A stretch of DNA of 64,000 bases from Zhongshania sp. (GTDB taxonomy: Bacteria; Pseudomonadota; Gammaproteobacteria; Pseudomonadales; Spongiibacteraceae): the NCBI RefSeq assembly GCF_029212375.1, contig NZ_JARGNU010000007.1, positions 1 to 64,000 of the forward strand, in the 5' to 3' direction. The position numbers were made by a program, and so were the translations under genes. The stretch's first letter is position 1, and each line of letters opens with the position of its first letter. Positions 11,995 to 36,630 of the stretch are shown in pieces. The notes under the pieces were generated by a model. It did no database searches, was not told the DNA's origin, and saw only the letters and a list, made by a program, of their open reading frames with translations.

Positions 11995-12068
11995 CGTTCG
12001 CTATCGCCTGCGCTATCGCTGATGTTGCTAATTGTGTGATCTTCTAGTGTGGCACTCAATAGCGCCGT

Positions 12069-13364
12069 TTACAGTTTTTTCCGCAGCACCGCATAGAAAA
12101 AACCGTCGTGACCCTGCTCTTGGGGAAATAACTGCCGACAGCCGTCGCGATTTACGCCCCAATCTGCCGCGATGGGCAGCAGTTCGGCCCCGGCCTGCCT
12201 GCTAAGAAACGCGCTAATCTGCGCCTCGTTTTCGGCGGGCAATAATGAACAGGTCGCGTACACAAACACGCCGCCTGGCGCCAAGCACTGCCACAGCTGG
12301 TCGAGCAAGCTCGCCTGCAAGCGGCACAGCGGCGCAATATCGCTGACTACTCGGTTGAGCTTAATGTCGGGGTTGCGGCGAATCACGCCGGTTGCCGAAC
12401 ACGGCGCGTCGAGCAATATGCGGTCAAAATGGCGGCCGTCCCACCAGCTGTCGAGGTCGGCGGCATCCGCCGCGACCAAGCTGGCGCTGAGCTGTAGGCG
12501 CTGTAAATTATCGCTAATTCGGCTCAGGCGCTGCTCGTCGATGTCGAGCGCGACCAGCTCGGCCAGCGCGGGCTCGGCCTCGAGTATGGCGCCGGTTTTA
12601 CCGCCCGGCGCGGCGCAGGCATCTAAGACCCGCTGGCCGGCGTGTAAATCCAGCAGCTGAGTACAGAGTTGGGCGGCTTCGTCTTGCACGCTTATATGGC
12701 CATCGGCAAAGCCCGGCAGCTTGTCTACCGCGCAGGCTTTGTCGAGGCGAATACCGTAGGGGGCAAATTCGCAGGGGCTGGCGTTCATCTCTTGCTCGGC
12801 GAGGCGCTGCAAATAACTATCGCGGTCTTGGTGCAGGCGATTGAGGCGCAGGCAGAACGGTGGATGAGCGTTGCTGGCAGCCATGATGTCGGTCAGCTGG
12901 TCGGGCCAAGCTTGGGCAATGGCCTGATAGAGCCAAGCTGGAAACGCCGCTTCGGCAGCGGGCTTTAAATCTTTAAACAGCGAGTCTTGCTCGCGCTGAC
13001 AGCGCCGCAGTATGGCGTTGGCCATGCCCGCCGCCCATTTTTTACCCAAGCTGCGGCAGCCTTCAACCGCGCTATTAATGGCGGCGTGGGGTGGAATGCG
13101 AGTGTAAAAAAGTTGGTAGGCGCCGATTAAAATCAGCATTTTTACATCGCTGTCTTTCGGTTTAAGGCCTTTGCTGAACAGCGGCTTGAGGCCGGCGTCG
13201 AGGCGCCAATAATAGCGCAGAGTACCGTAGCACAGCTCTCTGTACAGGGGCCGCTGCGCGGGGTCGAGGTCTTGCTCGCCGCGGGGTAATTGACGAGACA
13301 GCGAGCTGCCCTCTTGGGCAATACTGGCGAGGCAGCGCGCTGCAGCGACCCGGGGACATTTCAT
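12069..13364 (-). CDS. rsmB: 16S rRNA (cytosine-967-C5)-methyltransferase RsmB
   Basis: A 431-residue enzyme with an N-terminal NusB-like RNA-binding domain (about 1-135) and a C-terminal SAM domain. Motif I is DACAAPGGKTG. Both catalytic cysteines are present, in DAPCSATGVIRRNPD and YATCSLLPAENE. It methylates C967 of 16S rRNA before assembly. The start overlaps the fmt stop by 4 bases, so the two are translationally coupled. Confidence 0.96.
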   Translation of the reverse strand: MKCPRVAAARCLASIAQEGSSLSRQLPRGEQDLDPAQRPLYRELCYGTLRYYWRLDAGLKPLFSKGLKPKDSDVKMLILIGAYQLFYTRIPPHAAINSAVEGCRSLGKKWAAGMANAILRRCQREQDSLFKDLKPAAEAAFPAWLYQAIAQAWPDQLTDIMAASNAHPPFCLRLNRLHQDRDSYLQRLAEQEMNASPCEFAPYGIRLDKACAVDKLPGFADGHISVQDEAAQLCTQLLDLHAGQRVLDACAAPGGKTGAILEAEPALAELVALDIDEQRLSRISDNLQRLQLSASLVAADAADLDSWWDGRHFDRILLDAPCSATGVIRRNPDIKLNRVVSDIAPLCRLQASLLDQLWQCLAPGGVFVYATCSLLPAENEAQISAFLSRQAGAELLPIAADWGVNRDGCRQLFPQEQGHDGFFYAVLRKKL

Positions 13365-16117: not shown

Positions 16118-17254
16118 GTGCTGGCCCGCCCTACAGATCGCAAGGATGCGGATGTGGAAAATATTGCTTATCTGTGGCTGCTAGCCCAGCAGACTTTAGC
16201 GCTGCCGCCAGCGGGATTCCGTAAATTAATTGAGCGTATAGAGGATCCTCGCCAGCTCTTGCACTTGCCGCCCGAACAATGGGCGGCGCTGGCCCTGAGT
16301 ACACAACACCGCCAAGCCCTAGACCGCGCACTGTCGCGGCACCATCCCGACGAAATCATTGCCGAAAGCTTGCACCAGGCCAATGCCGACCTATTGTGCT
16401 GGCATGACGCCGATTACCCCGCGCTATTAAAAGAGATCTACGACGCCCCGCCTCTGCTCTATTATCGCGGCCGCCGCGAATTGCTCGGCGGCGCGCTATT
16501 TGCGGTGGTGGGCAGTCGTCGCCCCAGTCGCATTGGCCACGGCGATGCCCACGCTTTTGGCAAAGCCTTGAGTAATACGGGGCTGACGGTGGTGAGCGGC
16601 ATGGCGCTGGGGGTAGACGGCGCCGCCCATCTTGGCGCGCTAAGTGGCGCGTCATCGACGATTGCGGTGCTGGGTACCGGCGTTGATCGCTGCTACCCGC
16701 GGGGTAATGCTGCGCTGTATGAACGCATTGCCGCCGAGGGCTTGCTGCTCAGTGAATTTCCCTTAGGAAGCCCGCCGTTGCGCCACCAGTTTCCGCGCCG
16801 CAATCGGCTTATTAGCGGCATGAGTTTGGGGGTGCTGGTGGTTGAAGCAGCGGTGCGCAGTGGCTCGTTAATTACCGCCCAGCAGGCGCTGGAACAAAAT
16901 CGCGAGGTCTTTGCGATTCCCGGTTCTATTCACAACCCCGCTAGCCGCGGCTGTAATCGTCTTATTAAACAGGGGGCGAAACTGGTTGAAAGCCTTGATG
17001 ATATTTTGGAAGAATACAGCGCGTGGTTAGTGCACACTCAGGCCGAGGCGTTGTCTGGCGTTGAGGCAAGGTCTCTGCCGGGGGCCAATTCCAACTCTCC
17101 CGTGTATCAAGCCTTGGGTTTTGAGCCGGTTGCCGCCGACCTGCTCGCCCAGCATCTTGGTCTGGCTATTGCTGAGCTATTGAGCTTGCTTAGTGAACTC
17201 GAAGTTGAGGGCTGGGTTGAGCAAAACCAAGGTGGCTGGCAACGCTGTCGCTAG
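16118..17254 (+). CDS. dprA: DNA-processing protein DprA
   Basis: A protein of up to 378 residues. An N-terminal SAM-like helical region is followed by the extended Rossmann (DprA/Smf) domain (about 120-330) with VVGSRRPSRIG, SGMALGVDGAAH, VLGTGVDRCYPRGN and FPRRNRLISG, and a C-terminal winged-helix domain. It loads RecA onto incoming single-stranded DNA during natural transformation. The frame opens at GTG 16118; another in-frame GTG at 16154 is an equally possible start, and no ATG lies near. Natural competence cannot be concluded from this gene alone because non-competent species also keep it. Confidence 0.93.
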   Translation: MLARPTDRKDADVENIAYLWLLAQQTLALPPAGFRKLIERIEDPRQLLHLPPEQWAALALSTQHRQALDRALSRHHPDEIIAESLHQANADLLCWHDADYPALLKEIYDAPPLLYYRGRRELLGGALFAVVGSRRPSRIGHGDAHAFGKALSNTGLTVVSGMALGVDGAAHLGALSGASSTIAVLGTGVDRCYPRGNAALYERIAAEGLLLSEFPLGSPPLRHQFPRRNRLISGMSLGVLVVEAAVRSGSLITAQQALEQNREVFAIPGSIHNPASRGCNRLIKQGAKLVESLDDILEEYSAWLVHTQAEALSGVEARSLPGANSNSPVYQALGFEPVAADLLAQHLGLAIAELLSLLSELEVEGWVEQNQGGWQRCR

Positions 17255-17368
17255 GTGCTGCGCCGCGTTTAGGATCAATTTTCGACTTGTTTTGCCGCAA
17301 AAGCCTGTATACTTTGGCCGCATTCAATTGCCGTTATTTATACTCGCCGTCCTCATTGCGGATTAATC

Positions 17369-17938
17369 ATGATACCTCTGCCCGCCCAATATCGTTTGCG
17401 CCGCGCTGCCGCTTTGCTGCGCGCCGGCAAAGTGATTACTCACCCCACCGAAGCGGTGTGGGGCTTGGCCTGCGTGCCTTGGAGCCGCCCTGCGGTGACA
17501 CGTATACTGCAATTAAAACAGCGTGATCCGGCCAAGGGCTTAGTGCTGGTTGCAGACCATGTTTCTCGGTTTCAGGGCGTAATGCCCCTGCTGCCAGACG
17601 ATGTACAAGAATTATTAATGGCTAGCTGGCCCGGACCCAATACCTGGGTGGTGCCCGATACTGGCTGGGCGCCAGAGTGGATCCGCGGCAGCCATCAGAG
17701 TGTTGCCATTCGGGTGAGTAATCACCCGCTCACCGTGGCGCTCTGTCAGGCGGCCAATACCTGTTTGGTGTCTACCTCGGCCAATCCCGCGGGCATGGCG
17801 CCAGCGCGCAGCCAAGTCGAGGCCCAGCGCTATTTTCGTTCAGCAGTAGATTATTATTTGCCCGGTTGCACCGGCGGCCTCGCCCAGCCCACCGCTATTC
17901 GCGACGCGCTAACGGGGCAGGTTTTTCGTGGCGCCTGA
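17369..17938 (+). CDS. tsaC: Threonylcarbamoyl-AMP synthase TsaC (YrdC)
   Basis: A 189-residue YrdC-domain protein. KVITHPTEAVWGLAC is the ATP/threonine pocket; the phosphate-binding KQRDPAKGLVLV and the late SVAIRVSNHP and LVSTSANPAG segments follow. It makes threonylcarbamoyl-AMP from Thr, bicarbonate and ATP for the t6A37 modification of ANN-decoding tRNAs. Length matches E. coli TsaC (190). The order dprA-tsaC-hemF-aroE is the common gammaproteobacterial one. Confidence 0.95.
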   Translation: MIPLPAQYRLRRAAALLRAGKVITHPTEAVWGLACVPWSRPAVTRILQLKQRDPAKGLVLVADHVSRFQGVMPLLPDDVQELLMASWPGPNTWVVPDTGWAPEWIRGSHQSVAIRVSNHPLTVALCQAANTCLVSTSANPAGMAPARSQVEAQRYFRSAVDYYLPGCTGGLAQPTAIRDALTGQVFRGA

Positions 17939-18877
<939 letters not shown>

Positions 18878-23930: not shown

Positions 23931-24311
23931 ATGCTGGAGTTGTTACCCCTTCCCTTCGCCCATATTGTGGGTGTCAGGGTATCCGGCAAGGTCAATCACA
24001 CCGATATCGAAATCATTTTAGCGGAGGTTGAGCGCAAGCTTGCCAGCGAAGCGTATTTGGGTGTGCTTATCGAACTTGAACATTTCGACGGCTTCACGAT
24101 ACGGGGCTTGGTTAAAGAATTTAAATTCTTGAGCAAGTATATAAATCGTCTTACCCGCACTGCCATAGTTGGCGAGCCGCGCTGGTTTAATCGCGGCACC
24201 GAGCTTATTAAGCGGGTATACCCAAACATTGAGATTGAACACTTCATTCCGCTGCAAAAAGACGAAGCACTTCTCTGGGTGAGTGAGCGAGACGCGGGCA
24301 CTTTTGGTTGA
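23931..24311 (+). CDS. SpoIIAA-like (STAS-related) protein
   Basis: A 126-residue protein of the SpoIIAA-like family (DUF3478 type). It has alternating strands and helices and the characteristic DGFTIRGLVKEFKFLSKY and KRVYPNIEIEHFIPLQKDEALLWV segments. A strong GGAGG lies upstream of the ATG. Family members are small cytosolic or membrane-associated proteins without an established function. It sits between prlC-yheV and the GAK-like locus, convergent with the CofD-like gene; nothing ties it to that locus functionally. Confidence 0.85.
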   Translation: MLELLPLPFAHIVGVRVSGKVNHTDIEIILAEVERKLASEAYLGVLIELEHFDGFTIRGLVKEFKFLSKYINRLTRTAIVGEPRWFNRGTELIKRVYPNIEIEHFIPLQKDEALLWVSERDAGTFG

Positions 24312-24348: not shown

Positions 24349-25542
24349 TTACGTTAATGACAATAGCGCTGATACCAGCAATTGACTGTCGTAGTATGGC
24401 GCGCTGTGTTTGCTAACTAGTTTAATGTCGATAAGCTCGATGTTGTTCGCCTGTAAAAATGCTTTAGATAATTCGCCAGAGTAGTCGCCATTCTTGCTGT
24501 CGATAATGACAAAATCCAGCAAGCGGCCTTCGATTTCCCTCCTTTCAAAATCACTGCGAAGTTGATCTAGTAAGCCAGTGACCATGTCTTCTAAGCTCAT
24601 GCCGATCTGCTCTGGGTCAAAACCTAAATTGGGAATATACACTTTAGGGCAGTCGTTGGCGGCCACTGCGCGGCCTATCCCCTTGGGCATTAAATTTGCG
24701 ATTAAGCTCGAGTAGTAGCTGCCTGGCGGAAAACAGATTAGCTCAGCGGTCGCGATTAGCTTGCGGTTTTTTTTGCGTAAACTTGGGCTGACTGCTTGCC
24801 GCAGATCGCGGCTGCTAGAGAGAAACAGGGTTTCAATCGCCGAATTTAGCGGCGGCTGCTCTTTGCCGCTTAAACGGTGTTGACCAATAATTTCTGTGCC
24901 ATCACGCAGCACCGCGCCGAGATGCAAATTATCATTCACCACGGCCCGAACAGTACCTAGCACATTGACCAACTTAGAAAACAAAAAAATGATGGGATCT
25001 AAATGCTGCTGATTATTTAAGTAGCCGCCGGCTAAAATGAGATTGCCAATGCTGGCGCCACGCAGGTCGAAATCATCTGGCATTGCATCGCAAAAAAATT
25101 GCAGATAATTGCAAATAAGCTGACGCATGGGATTATTAATGTCCACAATTTGTGGCGCCAGGCCCTGCGCAAGCTGATGTAATTCTAGCTGTAATGCTTT
25201 ATTGCTGGCGCTTACGGAAAGCCGATAGTTAAATAAAGTGTAAATCTCGGGATGACCCAGCACCGACTCATCTGCCAAGGCCATTAAGCGGCTGCGTAAA
25301 TCACCAATTGCCGGCATAGCAAAGGCCAGCCTTAGCTTGGCAGAGCTGCCGCCGGAGTCAAAGGGTGTGACTAAGTGAATTGAGTTGTGGGTGTAATTCT
25401 TCAATTCGCGGCATAGGCCATTCAGCGCAGAACCGCCACTAAAAAACAGCAGTTTTGGTCCAAGCTCCGGCATCTTATAGTAGCGACTAATCCGCAATAA
25501 ATCGGGAATAGCGACGCTCCTCGTCACTTTTATGTTTGGCAT
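24349..25542 (-). CDS. CofD-like protein of the GAK system
   Basis: A 397-residue protein of the CofD/YvcK fold. The nucleotide-binding FSGGSALNGL lies near residue 34, with VTPFDSGGSSAKLR, the signature ASIGNLILAGGYL and late ICFPPGSYYSSLIANL. Classic CofD transfers 2-phospho-L-lactate in F420 synthesis; YvcK relatives regulate envelope metabolism and bind UDP-sugars. The extra length, the middle region and the neighbours match the CofD-like member of the GAK (ATP-grasp plus kinase) gene set, whose reaction is unknown. It is transcribed away from the rest of the locus, from a 268-base region carrying a Pho box. Confidence 0.85.
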   Translation of the reverse strand: MPNIKVTRSVAIPDLLRISRYYKMPELGPKLLFFSGGSALNGLCRELKNYTHNSIHLVTPFDSGGSSAKLRLAFAMPAIGDLRSRLMALADESVLGHPEIYTLFNYRLSVSASNKALQLELHQLAQGLAPQIVDINNPMRQLICNYLQFFCDAMPDDFDLRGASIGNLILAGGYLNNQQHLDPIIFLFSKLVNVLGTVRAVVNDNLHLGAVLRDGTEIIGQHRLSGKEQPPLNSAIETLFLSSSRDLRQAVSPSLRKKNRKLIATAELICFPPGSYYSSLIANLMPKGIGRAVAANDCPKVYIPNLGFDPEQIGMSLEDMVTGLLDQLRSDFERREIEGRLLDFVIIDSKNGDYSGELSKAFLQANNIELIDIKLVSKHSAPYYDSQLLVSALLSLT

Positions 25543-25680
25543 GAAGTAAAGCCTGTTTACACTAATTGGATTGCGCCTGTTGTGGCCAATACAGGCAAAA
25601 GAACGCCATTGTCTAATAAAACCATGACAGTTTCAGGTGGCATGGGGAGCCTAAATGCGGTGATATGCAGTGAATCTAGG

Positions 25681-25698
25681 CTGTCACATTTTTGTAAC
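25681..25698 (+). promoter_or_regulatory. Pho box (PhoB binding site) in the GAK divergent promoter
   Basis: CTGTCACATTTTTGTAAC: two 7-base half-sites, CTGTCAC and TTGTAAC, separated by ATTT. Compared with the established consensus CTGTCAT-(4)-CTGTCAT, it fits the T/C and A/C ambiguities with one real mismatch. It points towards the rightward genes, 113 bases before ATG 25811, and lies 139 bases from the divergent CofD-like start. AT-rich promoter-like sequence (TTATACC near 25728) follows. Confidence 0.6.
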
Positions 25699-25810
25699 AG
25701 ACAAGCGCCGTGGATTGCTTCAAAATGAATTATACCGTTTTGATGTATGAGTCGTATTTATCCATGAGGCCATCTGCTTTGAATAGCGCCGTAGTTAGCG
25801 ATAATTCAAT

Positions 25811-27448
25811 ATGCCATTGAGCAAAAGTATTAGTGATAATTTTCGCTTTCTGATTATTGAAGTCGATTCTCAGTTGGCTAAATTACATCGCTATATTGCC
25901 GCGCCAGAAGCGGCCTTGGCGCGCAGAATATTTGATCGCAGCGGCTACGCCCACAATTTAAAATCTCGTATTCACCGTAGTTGCCGCAGCCAATTAAGTG
26001 ACTGTGTTGAGCACGATATTATTGCCCATAAACTGCGCGCTGTAGAATTTATTGCCACCGAGCTAGACCGTATCGCCGAGCTATGTCGCGACTGCGTAAA
26101 GCAAATTTCATATGTAGATAGCTGGCAAATATTGGCAGACGAAGATTGTCAGGCGATGGTAGAGCGGCTTAGGCGCGGTTTGGATTTAGTCGAAACCGCG
26201 GTGCTGGAAAGCGATAGTAATCTGGCGTTAAAAATGGCCCAAGTTGAAGCCAAGCTCGATCGTGACTACCATAAGCTGCTGCGTTTTCATGTTGCTGCGC
26301 TAAAGCAAAAAGACAATACCAACGACATTATTTGCTCGCTGTTTGTGGCCCATAGTATTGAACAAATGGGCGACGTGTTACTGGCTATTAGCGAGTCGAT
26401 TATTTCGGCCAATCTTGGTCAAACGGTTAATTTTGAGCGCTTTAATACCTTGCAAGCCAGCATGGAAAATATGGATGTTGGCGAGAAGGTGAATGAGCTA
26501 AAAATTAAGGCAATTGCAGAAACCCGTTCTGGCAGTGCTATTTCGGCAATTACTAAAGCTGACGGCGAAGATGATTTTCTCGGAATTTTTAAAGACGGCG
26601 AAAAGCGCAAACTGAAAGGTGAGCGCAAGGGCCTAGACAGCTGGAATACAATTTATCCAGGTTTGGCGCCCAAAATTTTGTCTTATCAAAAACGCGGCCA
26701 ATCGGCAGCGCTCCTTATTGAACACCTTCCCGGCCTTACCTTTGAACAGATTGTACTGAATGAGTCACCGGCGCTAATCAACGAGGCTTTACAACATCTT
26801 GAGATGACCCTGCGCTCGGTGTGGCAGGAAACCCACAGCAAGAAAGTCATTGCTGCTAATTTTATGCAGCAATTAGCAGCGCGCTTGCCGGACGTTTACG
26901 CTATTCATCCCGAGTTTCAGCACAGCGATATACAGTTCTGCGGGCTAGATATCGCCTCGTTCAATCAATTGCTCGGGCGTGCAATGGAATTTGAGCGCGG
27001 GCTAAACGCGCCGTTCGCCGTGTATATTCACGGCGATTTTAATATTGATAATATTATTTACGATCCATTAGAGCAGCGCATTAATTTTATTGATTTACAC
27101 CGCTCGCGCTATACCGATTATGTGCAAGATATCTCTGTGTTTATGGTGTCGAACTACCGCTTACAAATACTTGATGTTGAACATCGCCAGCGCATTCTTG
27201 GGGTGGCGATGGCATTCTACGAGAGCAGTCGCCGCTATGCGGTGGAGCACCAAGATCACAGTTTTGATCTACGTCTAACACTTGGGCTGGCGCGTTCTTT
27301 TGTAAGCTCAACCCGCTTTATTTTGGACAAGAGTCTTGCGCGCAGCATGTTTTTGCGCGCTCGTTATTTGCTAGAGCAGCTTCTGGCCTTAGACCCTAAA
27401 CAAACGGCAGGCTACACCTTAGCGATAAAGGATATTTTTCGTGCATGA
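25811..27448 (+). CDS. PhoU-like domain fused to an aminoglycoside-phosphotransferase-like kinase (GAK locus)
   Basis: A 545-residue cytosolic protein. The first 215 residues are helical and resemble PhoU: paired helices, with the metal-site-like SIEQMGDVLLAISESI near 190, where PhoU has ERxGDH/D. A linker (about 220-280) leads to an APH/choline-kinase-like domain (about 285-540). It has LLIEHLPGLTF, the catalytic loop YIHGDFNIDN near residue 407 (Asp base, Asn metal ligand) and FIDLHRS near 426 as the second metal motif. The substrate is unknown. It overlaps the next gene by 8 bases. PhoU domains sense or signal phosphate status, which fits the upstream Pho box. The kinase call is firm; the PhoU call is by eye. 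Confidence 0.8.
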   Translation: MPLSKSISDNFRFLIIEVDSQLAKLHRYIAAPEAALARRIFDRSGYAHNLKSRIHRSCRSQLSDCVEHDIIAHKLRAVEFIATELDRIAELCRDCVKQISYVDSWQILADEDCQAMVERLRRGLDLVETAVLESDSNLALKMAQVEAKLDRDYHKLLRFHVAALKQKDNTNDIICSLFVAHSIEQMGDVLLAISESIISANLGQTVNFERFNTLQASMENMDVGEKVNELKIKAIAETRSGSAISAITKADGEDDFLGIFKDGEKRKLKGERKGLDSWNTIYPGLAPKILSYQKRGQSAALLIEHLPGLTFEQIVLNESPALINEALQHLEMTLRSVWQETHSKKVIAANFMQQLAARLPDVYAIHPEFQHSDIQFCGLDIASFNQLLGRAMEFERGLNAPFAVYIHGDFNIDNIIYDPLEQRINFIDLHRSRYTDYVQDISVFMVSNYRLQILDVEHRQRILGVAMAFYESSRRYAVEHQDHSFDLRLTLGLARSFVSSTRFILDKSLARSMFLRARYLLEQLLALDPKQTAGYTLAIKDIFRA

Positions 27449-28331
27449 TGTAAAAATTGCAGTTATTGGCATTCCTGGAAAATGGTCTAGCGAGGTGTTG
27501 GCCGATGCGCTGGCCGAGCGCACCGGCTTTCGGCTGCTAATTGATATGGCGGACGTGTCATTAGATTTACGTCGCAATACTTTAATGGCGGGCGATGTTG
27601 ATCTTGGTGAATTAGACGCCATTGTGGTTAAAAAAATCAGCGCTCAGTACAGTCCCAATACCATCGACCGGCTGGAATTATTGCGTATTGCTGAGCACCG
27701 CGGCGTTCGGGTGTTTAGCGGCGCGGAGCAAATGTTGCGCTTGGTAAACAGGCTCAGCTGCACGGTTACGCTGCGCAAGGCAAATATTCCAATGCCAGAC
27801 ACCGTCATTACCGAAAGCCTCAGCGATGCAACCGCAGCGGTAAGGGAGTTTGGCAGTGCGGTATTTAAGCCTTTGTTTTCTACCAAGGCGCGGGGCATGT
27901 GTATTATTGACAGCGCACTGCCAGACCCTGCGCTACGCGCTGCGATTGCTGATTTTATGGCCAGTAACCCGATGATGTACATTCAGCGCAAAATTGCGCT
28001 GCCTGGCCGCGATTTGGGTTTGGCCTTTCTAGGCGGCGAATTTCTAGCTTGCTATGCGCGGGTGAATCAGGGTGATGCTTGGAATACCACCATACACAGC
28101 GGCGGTCGCTATGAAGCGTATACGCCGCCTCAAGCGCTAATCGACTTGGCCCGCCGCGCCCAAGCACCGTTTAATATGGACTTTACTACTGTGGATATCG
28201 CCGAAACTGACACCGGCCCCATTGTTTTTGAGGTGTCGGCCTTTGGTGGCTTTCGCGGTGTAAAAGAAGGGGCTGGCATCGACGCCGCGGCTGCGTATAG
28301 TGACTATATACTCAAGGAAATACGTCGATAA
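27441..28331 (+). CDS. ATP-grasp enzyme of the GAK system (RimK-like)
   Basis: A 296-residue ATP-grasp protein. The N-terminal preATP-grasp domain (VKIAVIGIPGKWSSEVLADAL) is followed by the ATP-binding region with AVFKPLFSTKARGM near 140 and the metal-binding end IVFEVSAFGGFRG. It resembles RimK/LysX-type ligases that add amino acids to a carboxylate using ATP, so peptide-bond-like ligation is the expected chemistry, but the substrate is unknown. It overlaps the kinase gene before it (8 bases) and the HprK-related gene after it (TAATG), so these three are translationally coupled. Confidence 0.85.
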   Translation: MHDVKIAVIGIPGKWSSEVLADALAERTGFRLLIDMADVSLDLRRNTLMAGDVDLGELDAIVVKKISAQYSPNTIDRLELLRIAEHRGVRVFSGAEQMLRLVNRLSCTVTLRKANIPMPDTVITESLSDATAAVREFGSAVFKPLFSTKARGMCIIDSALPDPALRAAIADFMASNPMMYIQRKIALPGRDLGLAFLGGEFLACYARVNQGDAWNTTIHSGGRYEAYTPPQALIDLARRAQAPFNMDFTTVDIAETDTGPIVFEVSAFGGFRGVKEGAGIDAAAAYSDYILKEIRR

Positions 28332-29461
28332 TGCCAAACTCTGCAACACAGCAAGACCTCGCTGAAATCCTCTGCGGTGGCCACGCCATAACGGCGCGGT
28401 ATTTAGATTTAAAAATAGGTGACTTTTGCCTGCGGGTGCGGAGTAATTCCGAGGCCTTGCTCGATATATTGGCCAACTATTTTGGCCATATTGTAAATTC
28501 TTTTGAACACACGCCACTTGAGCTGATTGCGATTGACCGCGATGAGCCAACAGTAGATTTGGCGTTTGCTGACTGGCGCCGCGAAGGTAATAAGCAGGGC
28601 CGCAAAGACAGCTATATCGACCTGGCTAATGCGCGGCTGCTGCGTAAAGTTCGCACTGGTATGGTGTTTTTGCAAAGCACAGACTTACTTTTTGCCGCTG
28701 GGCCCAGCGTGCGTAACGACAATCAAGTAATCAATTTTATTATTGCCCAGTATATGAACTGGCTACAGCAGCGCGACTGGCTAATATGTCATGCGGCGGG
28801 CATTGTTTGCGATGGCCAAGCCTTCGGTTTGGCAGGCTTTTCTGGCGGTGGCAAATCCACTTTAATGCTGCAAATGATGGAAAACCCCGCCATTCAATTT
28901 ATGAGCAACGACCGCTTATTTATTAAGAAAATACCAGCGGCGACCTCCTGCGCTACCTACGCGGCTGGTGTGCCCAAGCTGCCACGTATTAATCCTGGTA
29001 CCATCGTGCATAATCCGCGTTTAGAAAATATGATTCCCGCGGCGCGGCGAGCGGCTTTATTGGCCATGCCCAAAGATGAGTTGTGGGAATTGGAAGAAAA
29101 ATACGATGCCAACATCGAATCGCTCTATGGCGCAGGCCGAATGAGTAATACACCATCGTGCTTGGCTGGTTTTGTGGTGCTTAACTGGCAGGGCGACAGC
29201 GTGGAGCAAACCCAACTAAATTTAGTAGACCTAAACCAGCGCCGAGATTTACTCGCGGCCATTGTTAAATCGTCTGGGCCGTTTTATCAGCGTGCTGACG
29301 GCGGCTTTCAAGACGATTTGCAGGCGATTAACGAGCGGCATTACCTCGATACCTTGGCCGGTTTGCCAATTTACGAAGTGTGTGGCCGCCGCGACTTTGC
29401 CGCTGCGCGGCAATTATTGTCGACCAAATTAACATCGCCGCTGGCGACCGCACACCACTAA
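28331..29461 (+). CDS. HprK-related kinase B (GAK system)
   Basis: A 376-residue protein with an HPr-kinase-like catalytic core. The Walker A loop GFSGGGKST lies near residues 168-176, followed by SNDRLFI in place of HprK's DDR motif and the family-typical VPKLPRINPGT near 218. HprK phosphorylates a serine of HPr; no HPr or PTS gene is in the window, so a different target is expected. It matches the HprK-related kinase of the GAK set by motif and by position after the ATP-grasp gene. Starts on the A of the previous stop. Confidence 0.85.
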   Translation: MPNSATQQDLAEILCGGHAITARYLDLKIGDFCLRVRSNSEALLDILANYFGHIVNSFEHTPLELIAIDRDEPTVDLAFADWRREGNKQGRKDSYIDLANARLLRKVRTGMVFLQSTDLLFAAGPSVRNDNQVINFIIAQYMNWLQQRDWLICHAAGIVCDGQAFGLAGFSGGGKSTLMLQMMENPAIQFMSNDRLFIKKIPAATSCATYAAGVPKLPRINPGTIVHNPRLENMIPAARRAALLAMPKDELWELEEKYDANIESLYGAGRMSNTPSCLAGFVVLNWQGDSVEQTQLNLVDLNQRRDLLAAIVKSSGPFYQRADGGFQDDLQAINERHYLDTLAGLPIYEVCGRRDFAAARQLLSTKLTSPLATAHH

Positions 29462-29477
29462 GCGCAGGAGCCGGAAA

Positions 29478-30212
29478 ATGTCGCGCCAATTTGCTGCCCT
29501 TATTCGTCACGGAGCATACCGGCAACTGGCGAATACTCCCAGTGCGCATCAAGGTTTTCCCCTAACGGAACACGGTTGCGAGCAAGCGCGAGACGGCGCA
29601 GCGGTATTGGCCGCGCTGGCCAGTGAGCATGGCTGGCAAGTAGAGGCGGTGATCGACTGCTCTACCCTGCTGCGGGCGTGGCAAACGGCGAGTCTATTTT
29701 GCGTGCAGTTACAGGCCAATGCGGCGGTGAACAAGCGCGCAGAATTACATCTTGCTAGCTACGATGTCCTCGCTGAGCGCGGCTTGGGCAGCGCCGCTAA
29801 TTTAAGTGTCGACGCCATTGCCAAACTTATTGCTGAAGACCCGCGCTTTCCGGCGCTGCCCGCCGATTGGAAATCCAATAGCTATTTTCAGCTGCCGCTG
29901 CTGGGGGCGGAGTCGTTAATGATGGCGGGCCAGCGCGTTGCCAAGCATATTCAGCAGCAAATGGACGACCTTGCTCTAGTCCGTACCCCGCCACGTGCCA
30001 CCGCAGCAGATTGCCTAAAAGTTTTTGTTGGCCACGGCGCGGCGTTTCGCCATGCCGCTTTTCAATTAGGCGTGCTTAAGTTTGACGATATTGCCGAGTT
30101 AAGTATGTACCACTGCCAGCCGGTGATATTAGAGCATCTTGGTAACGGCCAGTGGCAGCATATAGCGGGAAACTGGAAACGACGCGGCGTAAACGAAGGC
30201 GCCAAGGATTAG
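29478..30212 (+). CDS. Histidine phosphatase family protein (GAK locus)
   Basis: A 244-residue phosphatase of the phosphoglycerate-mutase-like superfamily. The RHG motif is at residue about 10 (ALIRHGAYRQ), and the second histidine is in KVFVGHGAAFRHA. An unusually acidic and helical insert lies in the middle. The motif and length fit a SixA/PhoE-like small phosphatase acting on phospho-histidine or a small phosphate ester. It begins 16 bases after the HprK-related gene, with AGGAG before the start, so it is in the same transcription unit. Confidence 0.82.
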   Translation: MSRQFAALIRHGAYRQLANTPSAHQGFPLTEHGCEQARDGAAVLAALASEHGWQVEAVIDCSTLLRAWQTASLFCVQLQANAAVNKRAELHLASYDVLAERGLGSAANLSVDAIAKLIAEDPRFPALPADWKSNSYFQLPLLGAESLMMAGQRVAKHIQQQMDDLALVRTPPRATAADCLKVFVGHGAAFRHAAFQLGVLKFDDIAELSMYHCQPVILEHLGNGQWQHIAGNWKRRGVNEGAKD

Positions 30213-30298
30213 GGCAAACGGGTCTTGTCCAATGTAAACGCCGATTCTGGATTGATAGCGGCGCGTAAGTCATCAATGTTCACCATACAGGGCTGCTT

Positions 30299-31609
30299 AT
30301 GCCACAAGACAGCGATTTACGGTCAGGCGACGAGCCAGACGCATCCCCGCCGGTAAGCCGCCCCAGCGAGCTGGTGGTGTGGCAGTTGGGTAAAGATCCC
30401 GTCGATGCTACGGCGTCGACTGCACTCAGCGCTGCGGTACAACAGGGCGCGGGCTTTAGTCTTTGGCAGGCGCCCAAACGGGCGGTGTATTTCTTTGCAG
30501 ACCCCCACGCCGACGCCGATGCATTTATCAACTCTCTGCGGGTCTCGGGCGGTATTAAAGCCAATGCCGCCAATAAGTTGGTGCTGACCAAGCGCGGTAA
30601 AGAAGCGGTGTTTGTTGTGGGCGGAGATTGTTTAGACAAAGGCCCAAGTAACTTGGGCTTATTACGCACCGTGCAGCAACTTATCGAAGCGGGTGCGACC
30701 GTAAAATTACTGGCCGGCAATCACGATGTGCGTTTGCTTATGGGGTTGCGCACCATGGGGTCTAAACGCAAGCCCCAGACTGAGCATATGTTTGTGCGCA
30801 TGGGCGCTAAAGTAATGCCCCTGTTCCGAGAAGTATTCGATCTTTACCTGCGCAATGATCCCACGGCGCTGGCTGATATTCCCGACACCGAAAACTGCCG
30901 TAAACAGCTTTACCCCCGCCAAGAATGGTTTAGCGAGTTCCCGTTGGTGGCGGCGGGTTACGCCAGTAACGAAGCCATTGGCCGCGAGTTGGTGCGCATG
31001 CAAAAAAAAGTCGATGGTTTCGACAAAGCCTGTGCCGAGGTGGGCTTGTCGTTGCGCGAAGTTTACGCCGCCGCGCTGTACTGCCAGAAATTGTTTTTAG
31101 ACAGTAAGGGCGAGTTCTCTTGGTTTTTTCGCGATATGCAGCTGGCCTATAAATCGGGTTCGTATTTATTTATTCACGCCGGCTTGGATGACAAGGTAAT
31201 TGACGTAATTGCCGAGCATGGCCTCGGTGGCCTCAATCGTCAATATCGTAAAATAGTCAAAAATAATTTATTCGACTTTTATTACGGCCCTCTCGCGAAC
31301 ACCATGCGCACCAAATACCGCGAGGTGGATATGCCGCTGACCAATGCGGGTGTGGAGCGCGCCTATGGCTTGGGCATTCACGCCGTGGTGCACGGCCATC
31401 GCAACCGCCATAACGGCCAGCGGCTAATGCTGCGCCAGGGTATGTTGCACATCGAAAGCGACACCACCATGGACCGCAACTCTCGCGCTAAGGAAGGACT
31501 TGCCGGTGTCGGCCACGGCGTAACCATTGTTCATCCCCGTGGCCAAGTGATTGGCATAAGCGCCGACTACCCCGCCGCCAAAGTGTTTGAGCCAGCGAGC
31601 TATTTGTAA
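30299..31609 (+). CDS. Calcineurin-like metallophosphoesterase (GAK locus)
   Basis: A 436-residue protein with the complete set of metallophosphoesterase motifs: FADPHAD near 66, GGDCLDKG near 107, AGNHD near 138, FIHAGLDD near 290 and HGHRNRHNG near 363. The first motif DPH replaces the commoner DxH wording but keeps both ligands. The domain carries long inserts relative to simple enzymes, including RTMGSKRKPQTEHMF after the GNHD motif. The substrate may be a phosphoprotein, nucleotide or phosphodiester. It follows the histidine phosphatase after 86 bases. Confidence 0.85.
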   Translation: MPQDSDLRSGDEPDASPPVSRPSELVVWQLGKDPVDATASTALSAAVQQGAGFSLWQAPKRAVYFFADPHADADAFINSLRVSGGIKANAANKLVLTKRGKEAVFVVGGDCLDKGPSNLGLLRTVQQLIEAGATVKLLAGNHDVRLLMGLRTMGSKRKPQTEHMFVRMGAKVMPLFREVFDLYLRNDPTALADIPDTENCRKQLYPRQEWFSEFPLVAAGYASNEAIGRELVRMQKKVDGFDKACAEVGLSLREVYAAALYCQKLFLDSKGEFSWFFRDMQLAYKSGSYLFIHAGLDDKVIDVIAEHGLGGLNRQYRKIVKNNLFDFYYGPLANTMRTKYREVDMPLTNAGVERAYGLGIHAVVHGHRNRHNGQRLMLRQGMLHIESDTTMDRNSRAKEGLAGVGHGVTIVHPRGQVIGISADYPAAKVFEPASYL

Positions 31610-31626
31610 CAAGGACAATATTGATT

Positions 31627-31896
31627 ATGCGCCAAGAAAAAAACAGCTTTCGTCACGAGTCTCTGCAAGACGCAAAAACCATACAAGACCTCCTCAAGGC
31701 CATTACCAAGGGCTTGGCTAGAGGCAGGCTAAGCTTTAGCGACGACGACGGTGATATTGTGTTAGAGCCAGAAGGCTTATTAAAAATAAAAGTCACCGCC
31801 AGCCAAGACAGCCATCAAGAGCGCCTCGACATTCGGATTAGCTGGCAGACTGACGATAGTCAGCTTGCGACTAAAACGCTGAAAATTGAGGGCTAA
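31627..31896 (+). CDS. Amphi-Trp domain protein (GAK locus)
   Basis: An 89-residue protein starting at ATG 31627, with AAGGA 11 bases upstream; an in-frame TTG at 31621 is a weaker alternative. The whole protein is one amphi-Trp domain: basic start, helix ESLQDAKTIQDLLKAITKGLARG, then strands GDIVLEPEGLLKIKVTA and ERLDIRISWQ with the defining Trp. This domain recurs beside HprK-related and ATP-grasp genes in the GAK set; its role there is unknown. Small size and lack of catalytic residues suggest a substrate, carrier or adaptor. Last gene of the run. Confidence 0.85.
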   Translation: MRQEKNSFRHESLQDAKTIQDLLKAITKGLARGRLSFSDDDGDIVLEPEGLLKIKVTASQDSHQERLDIRISWQTDDSQLATKTLKIEG

Positions 31897-32044: not shown

Positions 32045-32446
32045 TTACGCGTACTTCACCGTAGCAATGCCATCAAGTACGAGCTTACCTTTCTGATTGA
32101 GACAGTAAGTGCGAAGCTTGGCAATTGGTTTATCTTCCCGAATTTCAATGACCTCGACGATTGCAGTAACCTCGTCACCAATATAAATTGGGGCCTTAAA
32201 GGCTAAATCTTGGCCGAGATAAATAGTACCGCTGCCAGGTAAATGAGCGCCAAGTAAACCTGAAATAAGGCTGGCCACTAACATTCCGTGTACCACCTGA
32301 CCGCCAAATATACTGGCTGCCGCCGCCACACTATCGATATGTATGGGGTTAAAGTCTTCCGATAGTGCCGCAAAGTGATTTACATCTTCTGCAGTGAACG
32401 ACTTAGTAAGTTTGGCCTGATCGCCGACCTTGAATGTTGCTGTCAT
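32045..32446 (-). CDS. MaoC-type (R)-enoyl-CoA hydratase, PhaJ-like
   Basis: A 133-residue single hot-dog-fold hydratase. The catalytic Asp/His pair is visible in FNPIHIDSVAAA and VVHGMLVASL. It hydrates trans-2-enoyl-CoA to (R)-3-hydroxyacyl-CoA, a monomer for polyhydroxyalkanoate. ATG 32446 is chosen because GGGAG lies 8 bases upstream; an earlier in-frame ATG at 32464 lacks one. It is 121 bases downstream of the phaB-like gene and completes a phaC-phaB-phaJ-like order. Confidence 0.88.
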   Translation of the reverse strand: MTATFKVGDQAKLTKSFTAEDVNHFAALSEDFNPIHIDSVAAAASIFGGQVVHGMLVASLISGLLGAHLPGSGTIYLGQDLAFKAPIYIGDEVTAIVEVIEIREDKPIAKLRTYCLNQKGKLVLDGIATVKYA

Positions 32447-32567
32447 ACCTGTAACTCCCGTCAATCAATTTGATGTTGCAGCAGCAGGCTTCGCATACGC
32501 TGAAACCAACGGTGTTCACTTTGCGCCTGTGAGTATTTTGAGAGGCGGATTCTTGGCTTGATTGTGT

Positions 32568-33326
32568 TTAGTGGCCCATGTAGTAGCCGCCGTTTACGGG
32601 TATTTGAGCGCCAGTAATAAACGATGCCTGTGGCGAGCACAAAAAGGTAATGGCGGCTGCAATATCTCGGGGTTGACCAAAACGACCCACGGGAATATTG
32701 CTAAGTATAGTTTCTCTAATTTTTTCTGGTACGGCTTGGATCATTGGGCTATCGATGTACCCCGGAGCAACCGTATTAACTGTGACCCCTTTACGTGCGA
32801 CTTCTTGCGCTAACGCCATCGTAAAGCCATGAACGCCAGCCTTAGATGCCGAGTAATTTGTTTGTCCAAACTGGCCGCGCTGACCATTCACCGAAGACAC
32901 ATTAATTATGCGTCCCCAGCCACTTTCAACCATTCCTTCAACAACATGCCGCGCACTGTTGAACATGCTATTCAGGTTGACGCCCATAACTTGCTGCCAC
33001 TGATCATTTGTCATTTTTCGTATTGGCGCGTCGCGGGTAATGCCGGCGCAGTTCACGAGGATATCGATGGTGCCGTATTTTTCCTTAATCCCCTCAATTG
33101 CCGCGCCAGTTTCATCAAAGTCGGCCGCATCAAAGGTAACAACGTCAACTTCTATACCCGCAGCCATAGCCGCGCGTCCGAGATTATTGGCACTTTCTTT
33201 CTCAAAGGGCACCGCAGCGCCAACTACCTTCACTCCGGCTCGGTTAAGGTATAAGCACACTTGTTGTCCAATTGCTCCAGAGCCGCCGGTTACCAGAGCC
33301 ACTTTGCCTTCTAACGATAAATTCAT
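32568..33326 (-). CDS. phaB: Acetoacetyl-CoA reductase, PhaB type
   Basis: A 252-residue short-chain dehydrogenase. It has ALVTGGSGAIGQQV near the N-terminus (NADPH site) and a catalytic Ser-Tyr-Lys set in NVSSVNGQRGQFGQTNYSASKAG; the C-terminus is NGGYYMGH. The GQRGQFGQTNY wording is characteristic of PhaB rather than FabG. It makes (R)-3-hydroxybutyryl-CoA for the synthase encoded just upstream. Start ATG 33326 has GAGGTG upstream; a longer frame from 33353 does not. Confidence 0.92.
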   Translation of the reverse strand: MNLSLEGKVALVTGGSGAIGQQVCLYLNRAGVKVVGAAVPFEKESANNLGRAAMAAGIEVDVVTFDAADFDETGAAIEGIKEKYGTIDILVNCAGITRDAPIRKMTNDQWQQVMGVNLNSMFNSARHVVEGMVESGWGRIINVSSVNGQRGQFGQTNYSASKAGVHGFTMALAQEVARKGVTVNTVAPGYIDSPMIQAVPEKIRETILSNIPVGRFGQPRDIAAAITFLCSPQASFITGAQIPVNGGYYMGH

Positions 33327-33422
33327 AATCACCTCATTCAATAGTTGTATCATTTTTGGAAAACAACCAGCACAGAGCAGGCTGCGATTTAGGGCAGACC
33401 AAAACCATCTCTGCGTGTTTGG

Positions 33423-35162
33423 CTAGCGTTGTAAAACGTAAGTCCCTGGCGCATCACAAAGAATCTCGTAACCTTTATCGGGGGCGCCAATTTGCGGGGG
33501 AGCGGCTTTCTCGTCGGCTGAATGCAGTGCTAGCCAGCGCTGCCAGTTAAGCCACCATGAACCCTCGTGGAACTCTGCCGCCGCTTGCCAATCATCGGGC
33601 GACTGATAGCTCATATTCTGGTTCCAGCTACCTACGGTGTAGCTCCGGCGCGGACGACCAGGTTCAGAAACGATACCGGCATTGTGACCACCCGCCGTTA
33701 GGCAGAAGGTGGTTTCACCCAGTTTTTTCAAATTGCGGGTTTTATAAACAGACTTCCACGGGGCAATGTGGTCGGCTGTGGTGCCGACGATATACAGCGG
33801 CGCGGCGATGTCACTAAGGGAAATTGCGCGACCGCCCGCAATATATTGGCCTTCAGCCAGCTCATTCTTTAAATACAGTTGACGCAAATAATCGCTGTGC
33901 ATTTTGTAAGGCATACGCGTGCCATCGGCATTCCACGCCATAATGTCGAAGCCGGAGCCCTCTTCGCCTAAACAATATCGACGCAACAAGGGCTGCCAAA
34001 GTAAGTCGGGAGCCCGCAGCGCCGCAAACGCCCCGCCCATTTGTTTCGTTGCCAAAAAGCCCTTGCGCTTCATTTGTTGATCTACCCAGTAAAGGGTCAT
34101 TTCATCAACAAACAGACGCAGCTCTCCAGCATCAGTAAAGTCGGTTTGGGCTGCAAATAGAGTGATACTTTGTAAGCGCTCGTCGCCGTCGCGGGCCATA
34201 ACGGCGGCCGCTATCATTAATAGGGTGCCGCCAACGCAGTAACCAACGGAGTGCACTTTCTTCTTAGGCATAATCACGCCAATCGCATCCAGCGCTTCGG
34301 CTACTCCCAGTGTCCGATAGTCCTCCATTGTTAGTTGGCAGTCTTCTTTGTTAGGGTTTTTCCACGAGATAGCAAAAACGGTGTGACCCTGTTCGACCAG
34401 CCAACGAATCATTGAATTACTGGGTGATAAATCCAGAATGTAAAATTTCATGATCCACGCTGGTACATACAGAATCGGTTCTGCGTAAACATTCTCTGTG
34501 CTGGGCGAGTACTGGATCAATTCCATAAGGTCGTTGCGATAAACTACTTTGCCTGGCGTCATCGCCAAGTTTTCACCGACCTTGAACGACCCGGAAATAG
34601 TGTGATCGGTATTGGTCACTTTGCGCACTATGTCTCCAATGGCAAAGCGAGCGCCGCGCAGTAGATTTCCGCCTCGCTGCTTAATCGCTTCCTGAAGTAC
34701 TTCGGGGTTCGTTAATGCGAAGTTGGCGGGCGAAAGCATATCCACCAGCTGTTGGGTGTAAAACTGGACAATTTGAGCGTTGTGAGCGTCCATGCCCGGC
34801 AGTGGTTCGGTGGCTATGCGTGCCAGTTCGTCACGGTGCAATGCAGCTTGTACTAGCCATGAATAGGGTCGCTTTTCCCATCCCGCTGCCTTAAAGCGTC
34901 GATCTTTTGTTGGCTCGGCACCAAGTAACGCGCATTTGATTAAATCAAACCGACTGCGAATGAGCGCTTCCAGTATTTCTAGCTGCCGGCCTGGCGCTAC
35001 ACTAAGGTTAATAAGCCAGTCGAGATAAGCTTGAACAATACGCGGCCCAGGCAGACCGCCGCTGGAACTGCCTATCCAAGTGACCATGGCGTCGTTCAGT
35101 TTGGCGGCCGCTTCCTTATTAAGCCAGAGACGGTTTTTCTTGCGGGTGAGTTCGGTTTGCAT
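33423..35162 (-). CDS. phaC: Polyhydroxyalkanoate synthase PhaC (class I type)
   Basis: A 579-residue synthase that polymerises 3-hydroxyacyl-CoA on granules. The active-site Cys lies in the lipase-like box GYCVGGTLLM, with the Asp in VGTTADHIAPW and the His in TAGGHNAGIV. The N-terminal domain, from about 60 to 230, is the usual PhaC_N. ATG 35162 is chosen because it has AAGGA upstream and the protein then starts at the normal place; a longer frame from 35303 adds 47 residues with no similarity. No phasin or phaR gene is next to it. phaC, phaB and the MaoC gene are all leftward with gaps of about 100 bases. Confidence 0.95.
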   Translation of the reverse strand: MQTELTRKKNRLWLNKEAAAKLNDAMVTWIGSSSGGLPGPRIVQAYLDWLINLSVAPGRQLEILEALIRSRFDLIKCALLGAEPTKDRRFKAAGWEKRPYSWLVQAALHRDELARIATEPLPGMDAHNAQIVQFYTQQLVDMLSPANFALTNPEVLQEAIKQRGGNLLRGARFAIGDIVRKVTNTDHTISGSFKVGENLAMTPGKVVYRNDLMELIQYSPSTENVYAEPILYVPAWIMKFYILDLSPSNSMIRWLVEQGHTVFAISWKNPNKEDCQLTMEDYRTLGVAEALDAIGVIMPKKKVHSVGYCVGGTLLMIAAAVMARDGDERLQSITLFAAQTDFTDAGELRLFVDEMTLYWVDQQMKRKGFLATKQMGGAFAALRAPDLLWQPLLRRYCLGEEGSGFDIMAWNADGTRMPYKMHSDYLRQLYLKNELAEGQYIAGGRAISLSDIAAPLYIVGTTADHIAPWKSVYKTRNLKKLGETTFCLTAGGHNAGIVSEPGRPRRSYTVGSWNQNMSYQSPDDWQAAAEFHEGSWWLNWQRWLALHSADEKAAPPQIGAPDKGYEILCDAPGTYVLQR

Positions 35163-35249
35163 AACAACATTGTCCTTTTGCTGCTGAGAAGAAGTCAGTG
35201 TGATTAATTGGTTGTAGCAGCCATTAGCTTGGCAATTCTCTTTATATCT

Positions 35250-35283
35250 ACCTATATCGATATGAAAACTATTCGATATAGGT
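35250..35283. promoter_or_regulatory. 11-bp dyad upstream of phaC, possible operator
   Basis: ACCTATATCGA (35250-35260) and TCGATATAGGT (35273-35283) are perfect inverted copies around a 12-base AT-rich spacer, about 90-120 bases upstream of the phaC start. Such a dyad fits a dimeric regulator. No regulator gene lies next to it, and a hairpin in the leader RNA is the alternative. Confidence 0.5.
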
Positions 35284-35303
35284 ATGAAAATGCTACAAGA
35301 CAC

Positions 35304-35658: not shown

Positions 35659-36630
35659 ATGACTTTACCTAGAAAGGTACTGGTTTGTGTCGATGACACC
35701 CCCTTCTATCACGTAACTTCTCGGTGTGTGCGGCGCTCGTTTCTTTGCGGCGTCGACGATGCCACCGGAAATGACTACTCACACCGCCGGCTCTTTATTG
35801 AGCAAAGAATCCATTTGCTCAGCAGCCTTTTTGCCATTGATATTGCGGCCTATGCGGTAATGTCTAATCACTTACATTTGGTCGTTAAACTGTCGCCCGA
35901 AATAATTAATGAATGGTCTGATCACGAGGTTGTAAGCCGCTGGACGAGTTTGTTCAAAGGGCCATTCTTGATTCAAAACTACCTGAAAGGCGTAAACCTT
36001 TCACCCGCCGAACAGGGCGCGCTAAATGACATTATTGCCAGCTATCGTCTGCGCCTCGCCGATTTAGGCTGGTTTATGAAATGCCTTAATGAGCCTATTG
36101 CTAGGATGGCCAATCAAGAAGATGGCTGCACTGGCCATTTTTGGGAAGCCCGCTATCGATCTCAGGCGCTATTAAGTGAAGAGGCGTTACTCAGCTGCAT
36201 GGCGTATGTTGATCTAAACCCGATTCGAGCCAATATCGCTCTCACTCCAGAACAGTCTGAGCACACCAGTGTTAAAGAACGGATTAACCCGTCATTAAAT
36301 TTAGCGAAAACAATCACTAAGCTTTTGCAAACCCAGCGACTCAATCATTTTGACGTCACTCTAAAACCTTTGCTGTCATTTGAGGATAATCTTACCGACA
36401 AGGACCAGTTTGGCATTTTATTCAGCCTAAAAGATTACCTAGAGCTCGTCGATCAAACTGGCCGCATTGTGCACGATGATAAAAAAGGCGCAATTGCACT
36501 TCACCTACCTAAAATTATCGAACGCTTAGGCATAGACCGAAAGACGTGGCTGAATAATGTCACGGCTTTTGAAAAAAATTACCGTCAACACTTTTCTAAA
36601 AGGCGGCAATTGGCTAAAGCCGCGTCGTAA
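35659..36630 (+). CDS. REP-associated tyrosine transposase (Y1/IS200-like family)
   Basis: A 323-residue protein of the TnpA_REP/RAYT type. The start FYHVTSRCVRRSFLCG, the HUH metal motif in YAVMSNHLHLVVKL, and the strongly conserved GCTGHFWEARYRSQALLSEEALLSCMAYVDLNPIRA are all present, so the catalytic domain appears complete. These single-strand transposases nick DNA at short palindromic repeats and are usually domesticated one-copy genes. AAAAGGAT lies upstream. The last 101 codons and 3' flank recur in the tandem copy that follows. Confidence 0.9.
   Translation: MTLPRKVLVCVDDTPFYHVTSRCVRRSFLCGVDDATGNDYSHRRLFIEQRIHLLSSLFAIDIAAYAVMSNHLHLVVKLSPEIINEWSDHEVVSRWTSLFKGPFLIQNYLKGVNLSPAEQGALNDIIASYRLRLADLGWFMKCLNEPIARMANQEDGCTGHFWEARYRSQALLSEEALLSCMAYVDLNPIRANIALTPEQSEHTSVKERINPSLNLAKTITKLLQTQRLNHFDVTLKPLLSFEDNLTDKDQFGILFSLKDYLELVDQTGRIVHDDKKGAIALHLPKIIERLGIDRKTWLNNVTAFEKNYRQHFSKRRQLAKAAS

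Follow-up and report, generated by a model that had tools for sequence, protein, structure and literature searches.

A GAK-type gene cluster of Zhongshania sp. with a predicted Pho box and a possible role in phosphate metabolism

The GAK system of NCBIfam is named through four protein families (TIGR04354–TIGR04357). A locus of this type is located between positions 24349 and 31896 of a 64,000-nucleotide stretch of Zhongshania sp. (contig NZ_JARGNU010000007.1, positions 1 to 64,000), a gammaproteobacterium of the family Spongiibacteraceae; this whole stretch is called the window in the following. A sequence-only reading of the window had listed seven open reading frames (ORFs) for the locus, and all of them are present at the expected positions. 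Together with a Pho box the features are:

24349..25542, minus strand: CofD-like gene (YvcK-type), divergent, optional in the GAK system; TIGR04357 (CofD_rel_GAK) 531.7 bits, cut-off 340; TIGR01826 (YvcK) 113.1 bits
25681..25698, plus strand: Pho box CTGTCAC-ATTT-TTGTAAC in the divergent promoter, exact match to YTGTMAYNNNNYTGTMAY
25811..27448, plus strand: fusion of a PhoU domain with an APH-type kinase (PhoU-APH); PhoU and APH both above the Pfam cut-offs
27441..28331, plus strand: GAK ATP-grasp enzyme, RimK/LysX/MptN-like, GTG start; TIGR04356 (grasp_GAK) 445.7 bits, cut-off 300; MptN model 137.7 bits
28331..29461, plus strand: HprK-related kinase B (HprK-B), PEPCK/HprK fold; TIGR04355 (HprK_rel_B) 311.8 bits, cut-off 200
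29478..30212, plus strand: histidine phosphatase family protein (HisP); His_Phos_1 43.9 bits, above the Pfam cut-off
30299..31609, plus strand: metallophosphoesterase (MPE), weakly ApaH-like; Metallophos 30 bits, above the Pfam cut-off
31621..31896 (likely true start 31627), plus strand: amphi-Trp protein of the GAK-specific type; TIGR04354 66.7 bits, cut-off 31

The overlaps described earlier for the first three rightward genes are real and comprise 8 bases (27441-27448) and a TAATG junction at 28331; the gaps between the later rightward genes measure 16, 86 and 11 bases. The amphi-Trp gene probably begins at the ATG at 31627 rather than at the TTG at 31621, because several of its relatives start with MRQ or similar. 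The proposed GAK identity was borne out by profile searches, in which all four named families lie above their curated cut-offs, and the Prokaryotic Genome Annotation Pipeline (PGAP) gives identical names in copies of the locus on plasmids. Different from the system as named in NCBIfam, PhoU-APH, HisP and MPE are regular members here, the CofD-like gene may be absent, and the set is often enlarged by Nudix and SixA-Nudix genes.

The recurrence of these genes was followed in samples of 274 genomes of the class, 21 of the family and 398 of the phylum. Matches to grasp_GAK above the cut-off occur in 8/274, 8/21 and 13/398 genomes, respectively (14 in the phylum sample at E<=1e-60). Within the family, PhoU-APH is found in exactly the 8 genomes with the ATP-grasp gene and in 0 of the 13 others. 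This kinase, which the NCBI GAK models do not name, is the closest partner of the ATP-grasp gene, more faithful than the CofD-like gene. Every ATP-grasp genome of the phylum sample (14/14) also has HprK_rel_B, as do two extra genomes with contig-edge matches (G421, G465), whereas CofD_rel_GAK is present in five of the 14 and missing from nine. Co-occurrence across genomes holds for HprK-related B and for PhoU-APH, but the CofD-like gene is not the constant member it had been taken for.

Forty related loci were compared; they were fetched via the ATP-grasp gene, whose 40/40 is therefore given by construction. Among them PhoU-APH is found in 36, HisP in 34, HprK-B and MPE in 33 each, amphi-Trp in 28 and CofD in 13 (L044 included, with a longer protein below the family cut-off), several of the missing members being due to short contigs. 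Three of the loci lacking PhoU-APH lie on contigs of 5.6 to 7.2 kb, and the fourth, L084, has a partial ATP-grasp match at a contig edge. Other bacteria, among them a planctomycete and, on plasmids, Rhodobacterales, show the rightward gene order too. A common succession is PhoU-APH, ATP-grasp, HprK-B, (SixA-Nudix), HisP, MPE, amphi-Trp; a variant with ATP-grasp, HisP and MPE followed by PhoU-APH exists in L040, L041, L044 and L045. The ATP-grasp gene was also found on five plasmid records, and all four that were opened carry the same run. A reduced set of amphi-Trp, PhoU-APH, ATP-grasp and HprK-B is present in the single-contig genome G053, in which no MPE relative was found at E<=1e-10. A metagenome-assembled genome (MAG) of Methylomonas (G677, completeness unstated) has PhoU-APH and ATP-grasp and no match to HprK-B or MPE.

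In a tree of 42 ATP-grasp rows, from which L071 and L084 were left out, the loci L072, L073 and L082, which belong to the same taxonomic order as the window, cluster with alphaproteobacterial plasmid copies (99/96), and Rhodopirellula falls among proteobacterial rows; many deep forks are open. Both placements suggest that the GAK genes were spread by horizontal transfer. As to the two rows left out, the ATP-grasp and PhoU-APH matches of L071 are broken into overlapping frames and L084 is partial, so that these are either decaying copies or assembly errors.

The motif CTGTCACATTTTTGTAAC was first spotted by eye between the two divergent genes and tested afterwards. The genome (3.8 Mb) contains 8 exact matches to the pattern YTGTMAYNNNNYTGTMAY, compared with 4 to a reversed control pattern, and at this density the chance of a match in the 268-base gap is about 6 in 10,000. 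Five of the matches precede phoB (TIGR02154), pstS (TIGR02136), a pstC-like gene truncated by the end of its locus, a Porin_O_P gene and PhoU-APH; of the remaining three, one falls within folB, one within another ORF and one next to a short ORF. The four matches before phoB, pstS, the pstC-like gene and the Porin_O_P gene, located at C13:45175, 47283 and 48410 and at C22:51004 (L120-L122, L124), sketch a small putative Pho regulon. As in operons of the PhoB/PhoR regulon, and as at phoB and pstS of this genome, the box of the window has the 7-4-7 layout, which is given for Pho boxes in PMC4415409; unlike in such operons, the box is predicted from sequence and is not conserved in most GAK loci. 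Its spacing to a −10 site in the window is not convincing. Since it lies in the shared promoter, PhoB probably turns the cluster on at low phosphate in this bacterium.

Within the genus of the window the box could be aligned in five of eight GAK loci, two of them with one base off the pattern, and not in L087, L090 and L091. A promoter scan covered 34 GAK operons, omitting L040, L045, L071 and the loci without PhoU-APH. A best score of at least 12 was obtained before 10/34 operons (three on the opposite strand) versus 11/317 controls (Mann-Whitney p=0.0024). A core match on the same strand precedes 5/34 operons (window, L072, L073, L086, L089) versus 2/380 controls (p=5e-5), these positives not being independent, with three in one genus and two in another. 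One of the two control matches belongs to a CHAD gene heading a run into GAK. On the opposite strand, core matches were found for 3/34 GAK operons versus 3/380 controls. In L072 and L073 several repeats of the box, 11 bases apart, are followed by a −10-like site, as judged by eye.

Further genes accompany the system in its relatives. Among 41 GAK loci (676 kb) a small Nudix gene occurs in 10, a SixA-Nudix gene in 15 and a CHAD gene in 5, versus 0/60 control regions of 20 kb each (1.2 Mb from 19 genomes). The association of the Nudix genes is firm, as they are located in the run itself; that of CHAD, from about three lineages (L033/L068, L077/L079, L034), is suggestive. In Rhodopirellula (L034) the run consists of CHAD, Nudix, PhoU-APH, ATP-grasp, HprK-B, SixA-Nudix, HisP and MPE. 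Comparable is the Streptomyces ppk-pptA(CHAD)-Nudix operon, whose surroundings are phosphate-controlled and include CHAD, Nudix and histidine phosphatase genes: the operon is controlled by PhoP, and genes for Nudix, MutT and histidine phosphatase proteins often follow ppk (PMC8003754). Binding of polyphosphate by CHAD is described in PMC6537752. In contrast to the Streptomyces operon, no PPK1 was seen by eye in the examined GAK loci, for which no dedicated search was made, and PPK2 is present in 2/41; profile searches found no polyphosphate kinase among the GAK genes of the window. The Pho box and the Nudix, SixA-Nudix and CHAD genes of the relatives suggest a link to the metabolism of phosphate or polyphosphate. 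L079 carries an AAA_21 and RloB-like pair (11105-12796) between its MPE and CHAD genes, possibly an inserted pair of defence type.

The catalytic motifs announced for the enzymes are present and conserved in relatives, with two reservations, N193 of HprK-B and S266 of the ATP-grasp enzyme. In the family alignments, from which fragments below score limits were dropped, the kinase residues HGD/N/D of PhoU-APH are found in 35 of 37 rows, the other two being gapped, and residues 8-221 of this protein match the PhoU structure 4q25 (7.8e-10) in a PDB search. The ATP-grasp enzyme has its best PDB match in 3vpd (1.7e-16) and its closest structures in LysX and RimK, and its profile matches include the MptN and CofF models. 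It resembles the LysX/LysW and RimK amide ligases in sequence over most of its length and differs from them in its partner proteins and in a serine, S266, present in 40/41 rows where LysX has asparagine. For HprK-B a sequence search of the PDB gave nothing real and no HprK structure. However, its AlphaFold2 (AF2) model (predicted local distance difference test, pLDDT, 87.3) matches PEPCK (5.4e-07) and HprK/P (9.0e-06) in Foldseek, so that it has the PEPCK/HprK fold with a P-loop; P-loop and histidine are conserved in the aligned rows, as in HPr kinase/phosphorylase. Instead of the Asp-Asp that is conserved after the P-loop of HPr kinases (Asp177/Asp178 in PMC11204831), HprK-B has Asn-Asp-Arg, with N193 in 34/34 rows, according to a motif alignment that has to be shifted by one residue and does not rest on superposed structures. 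A true HprK was sought in the same genome for alignment and none was found; the comparison therefore rests on motifs and on PMC11204831. The asparagine could mean that the acceptor, for example a carboxylate or a phosphate, needs no general base. Residues R10, H11, R66, E145 and H186 of the histidine phosphatase are found in 35/35 rows. The metal-site residues of MPE are present in 33/33 and H367 in 32/33, and its best PDB match is ApaH, a weak one (0.0018).

The CofD-like protein is akin in sequence to YvcK and not to the F420 enzyme CofD (2-phospho-L-lactate transferase). Its nearest PDB chains are UPF0052 or uncharacterised proteins (best 5.5e-32) with no F420 CofD chain at E<=0.001, and in the profile search only YvcK-type and GAK models appeared and no F420 CofD model at E<=1. 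In the window the gene is linked to the GAK run as its divergent neighbour. The unlinked copies of G423 and G439 are found close to a UgpB/GDPD glycerol-phosphate operon (L116, with the layout repeated in L115), and one genome, G298, has CofD_rel_GAK without GAK, adjoining a Na/Pi cotransporter with a PhoU domain (L114). A 600-residue CofD/YvcK-like protein is encoded at 16632-18434 (plus strand) of L044, a GAK locus from the record of a symbiont of shipworm or clam type; it scores 255 bits against CofD_rel_GAK (cut-off 340), and its N-terminal part is, by eye, apparently membrane-spanning.

The amphi-Trp proteins of GAK loci share F10, H12, S14, D17, S40 and W75 (F10 and W75 in 29/29 rows, S40 in 27/29), most of which are lacking in five aligned non-GAK proteins. 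In the class sample 10 of 14 genomes with amphi-Trp have no GAK-level ATP-grasp gene, and the loci of these ten (L131-L140) show a short, different amphi-Trp subtype. No common partner was seen by eye in 13 non-GAK amphi-Trp neighbourhoods, of which L128-L130 are in GAK genomes.

Taken together, the locus is best read as a GAK-type module for phosphotransfer and ligation at phosphate starvation, tied to phosphoanhydride or polyphosphate metabolism, with a probability of about 0.5. Regulation and gene content have support from the data above; the chemistry, including substrate and product, we infer. PhoU-APH would be a kinase under the control of its own PhoU domain and, together with the PEPCK/HprK-fold kinase, would phosphorylate a low-molecular-weight compound. 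On this compound the RimK/LysX-type ATP-grasp enzyme would couple a carboxylate with an amine via an acyl phosphate, with the small amphi-Trp protein as a possible carrier or scaffold. The histidine phosphatase and the metallophosphoesterase, in relatives also the Nudix and SixA-Nudix proteins, may remove phosphate groups, probably phosphoanhydrides. The module might in this way store, release or signal phosphate, beside polyphosphate or in exchange with it, and the CofD/YvcK-like protein would be an optional regulator. The phosphoryl transfer and ligation proposed earlier fit the enzyme families and folds, but a pathway that builds a tag and removes it again is one possibility among several.

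Several points weigh against this interpretation, the strongest being that the Pho box is absent in most loci and that the substrate is a putative one. A core Pho box on either strand is missing from 26/34 GAK operons, a site scoring at least 12 was found in 0/4 plasmid copies, and the core-positive loci come from few lineages, namely two genera plus three cases on the opposite strand. Among the neighbours, Na/Pi cotransporter (3 vs 1) and PPK2 (2 vs 1) are not clearly enriched and ParA (4 vs 4) is not; the seed genes for this count were picked after the loci had been seen, and some of the loci are related to one another. The GAK locus of the window itself has no CHAD, Nudix or SixA-Nudix gene. 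In addition, the PhoU match of PhoU-APH could be structural and not indicate a phosphate sensor, and given N193, HprK-B may not be a normal kinase.

Among other explanations, protein tagging or carrier chemistry is unlikely, though it comes before the rest: the amphi-Trp protein would be the substrate, to which the ATP-grasp enzyme adds an amino acid or amine and which HprK-B phosphorylates, the phosphatases reversing this. LysX modifies LysW and HprK phosphorylates HPr, and the kinship of the ATP-grasp enzyme to LysX/RimK fits this picture, as do the distinct GAK type of amphi-Trp with its well-kept S40, its position in the operon in 28/40 loci and, in G053 with its reduced set, its place adjoining the core. 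However, LysW has a conserved acceptor end and the C-termini of amphi-Trp vary; locus L043 of the Methylomonas MAG contains PhoU-APH and ATP-grasp but lacks amphi-Trp throughout its 20.9 kb, and most amphi-Trp genomes of the class sample lack a GAK-level ATP-grasp gene, as counted above. AF2 gave a poor model of amphi-Trp (pLDDT 59); its fold could therefore not be searched and gives no argument. Rather improbable is a nucleoside polyphosphate or inositol-pyrophosphate-like messenger that is made by the kinases, possibly with the ATP-grasp protein as a kinase like PPIP5K, an ATP-grasp protein acting as such, and destroyed by Nudix, SixA-Nudix, HisP and the ApaH-like enzyme. The set of hydrolases, the predicted Pho control and the PhoU fusion speak for it, but the ATP-grasp enzyme scores with amide ligases and not with inositol kinases, and the similarity of MPE to ApaH is weak. 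Equally doubtful is a self-contained phosphate-signalling pathway in which the PhoU-governed kinase, the PEPCK/HprK-fold kinase and the ATP-grasp enzyme would synthesise a novel phosphorylated messenger of peptide-like nature or a store of phosphate, with a matching set of hydrolases to destroy it; this would be a horizontally spread functional counterpart of eukaryotic inositol pyrophosphate signalling.

A pathway resembling that of cofactor F420, with the CofD-like protein transferring a phospho-group and the ATP-grasp enzyme capping with glutamate, is very unlikely. The resemblance lies in the name and the CofD superfamily and in the MptN and CofF models among the ATP-grasp matches; the pathway was rejected because the CofD-like protein has YvcK-type matches and no F420 CofD model among them, and because only 5/14 GAK genomes have the gene. 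Hardly credible, finally, is anti-phage defence or another mobile accessory system. The distribution is patchy within genus and family (8/21), the ATP-grasp gene is found on five plasmid records and the tree suggests horizontal spread, but none of the seven proteins has a PADLOC match, matches to the ATP-grasp protein in phage records number 0, and a Pho box is present.

On both sides the locus is flanked by genes of other kinds. A SpoIIAA-like protein (PF11964, 69 bits) encoded at 23931-24311 (plus strand) directly precedes the CofD-like gene; as a member of the system it was rejected, since it was found in 0/40 related loci. Downstream, MaoC-like, short-chain dehydrogenase and PhaC genes of the polyhydroxyalkanoate type occupy 32045-35303 (minus strand). 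They were rejected as partners as well, with a PhaC-like match in 1/40 loci of relatives (L082) and MaoC and PhaB in 0/40 (E<=1e-20). At 35659-36630 (plus strand) follows an ORF whose start resembles, by eye, transposases associated with repetitive extragenic palindromic (REP) elements; it has no Pfam match at E<=1e-5.

The sequence-only reading knew of no established function for the GAK system. In agreement with this, a search covering part of the literature yielded no paper under the GAK family names, nor did a search with combined terms, again over part of the literature, yield one on such a system. The Pho box and the polyphosphate-type partners narrow the question of GAK function to growth at low phosphate. 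If the preferred reading of a phosphate-starvation module is true, marine and other bacteria would possess an unrecognised phosphate pathway, built around an ATP-grasp enzyme and including a kinase with a PhoU regulatory half. It would also provide the first lead on the amphi-Trp family, which is found outside GAK too.

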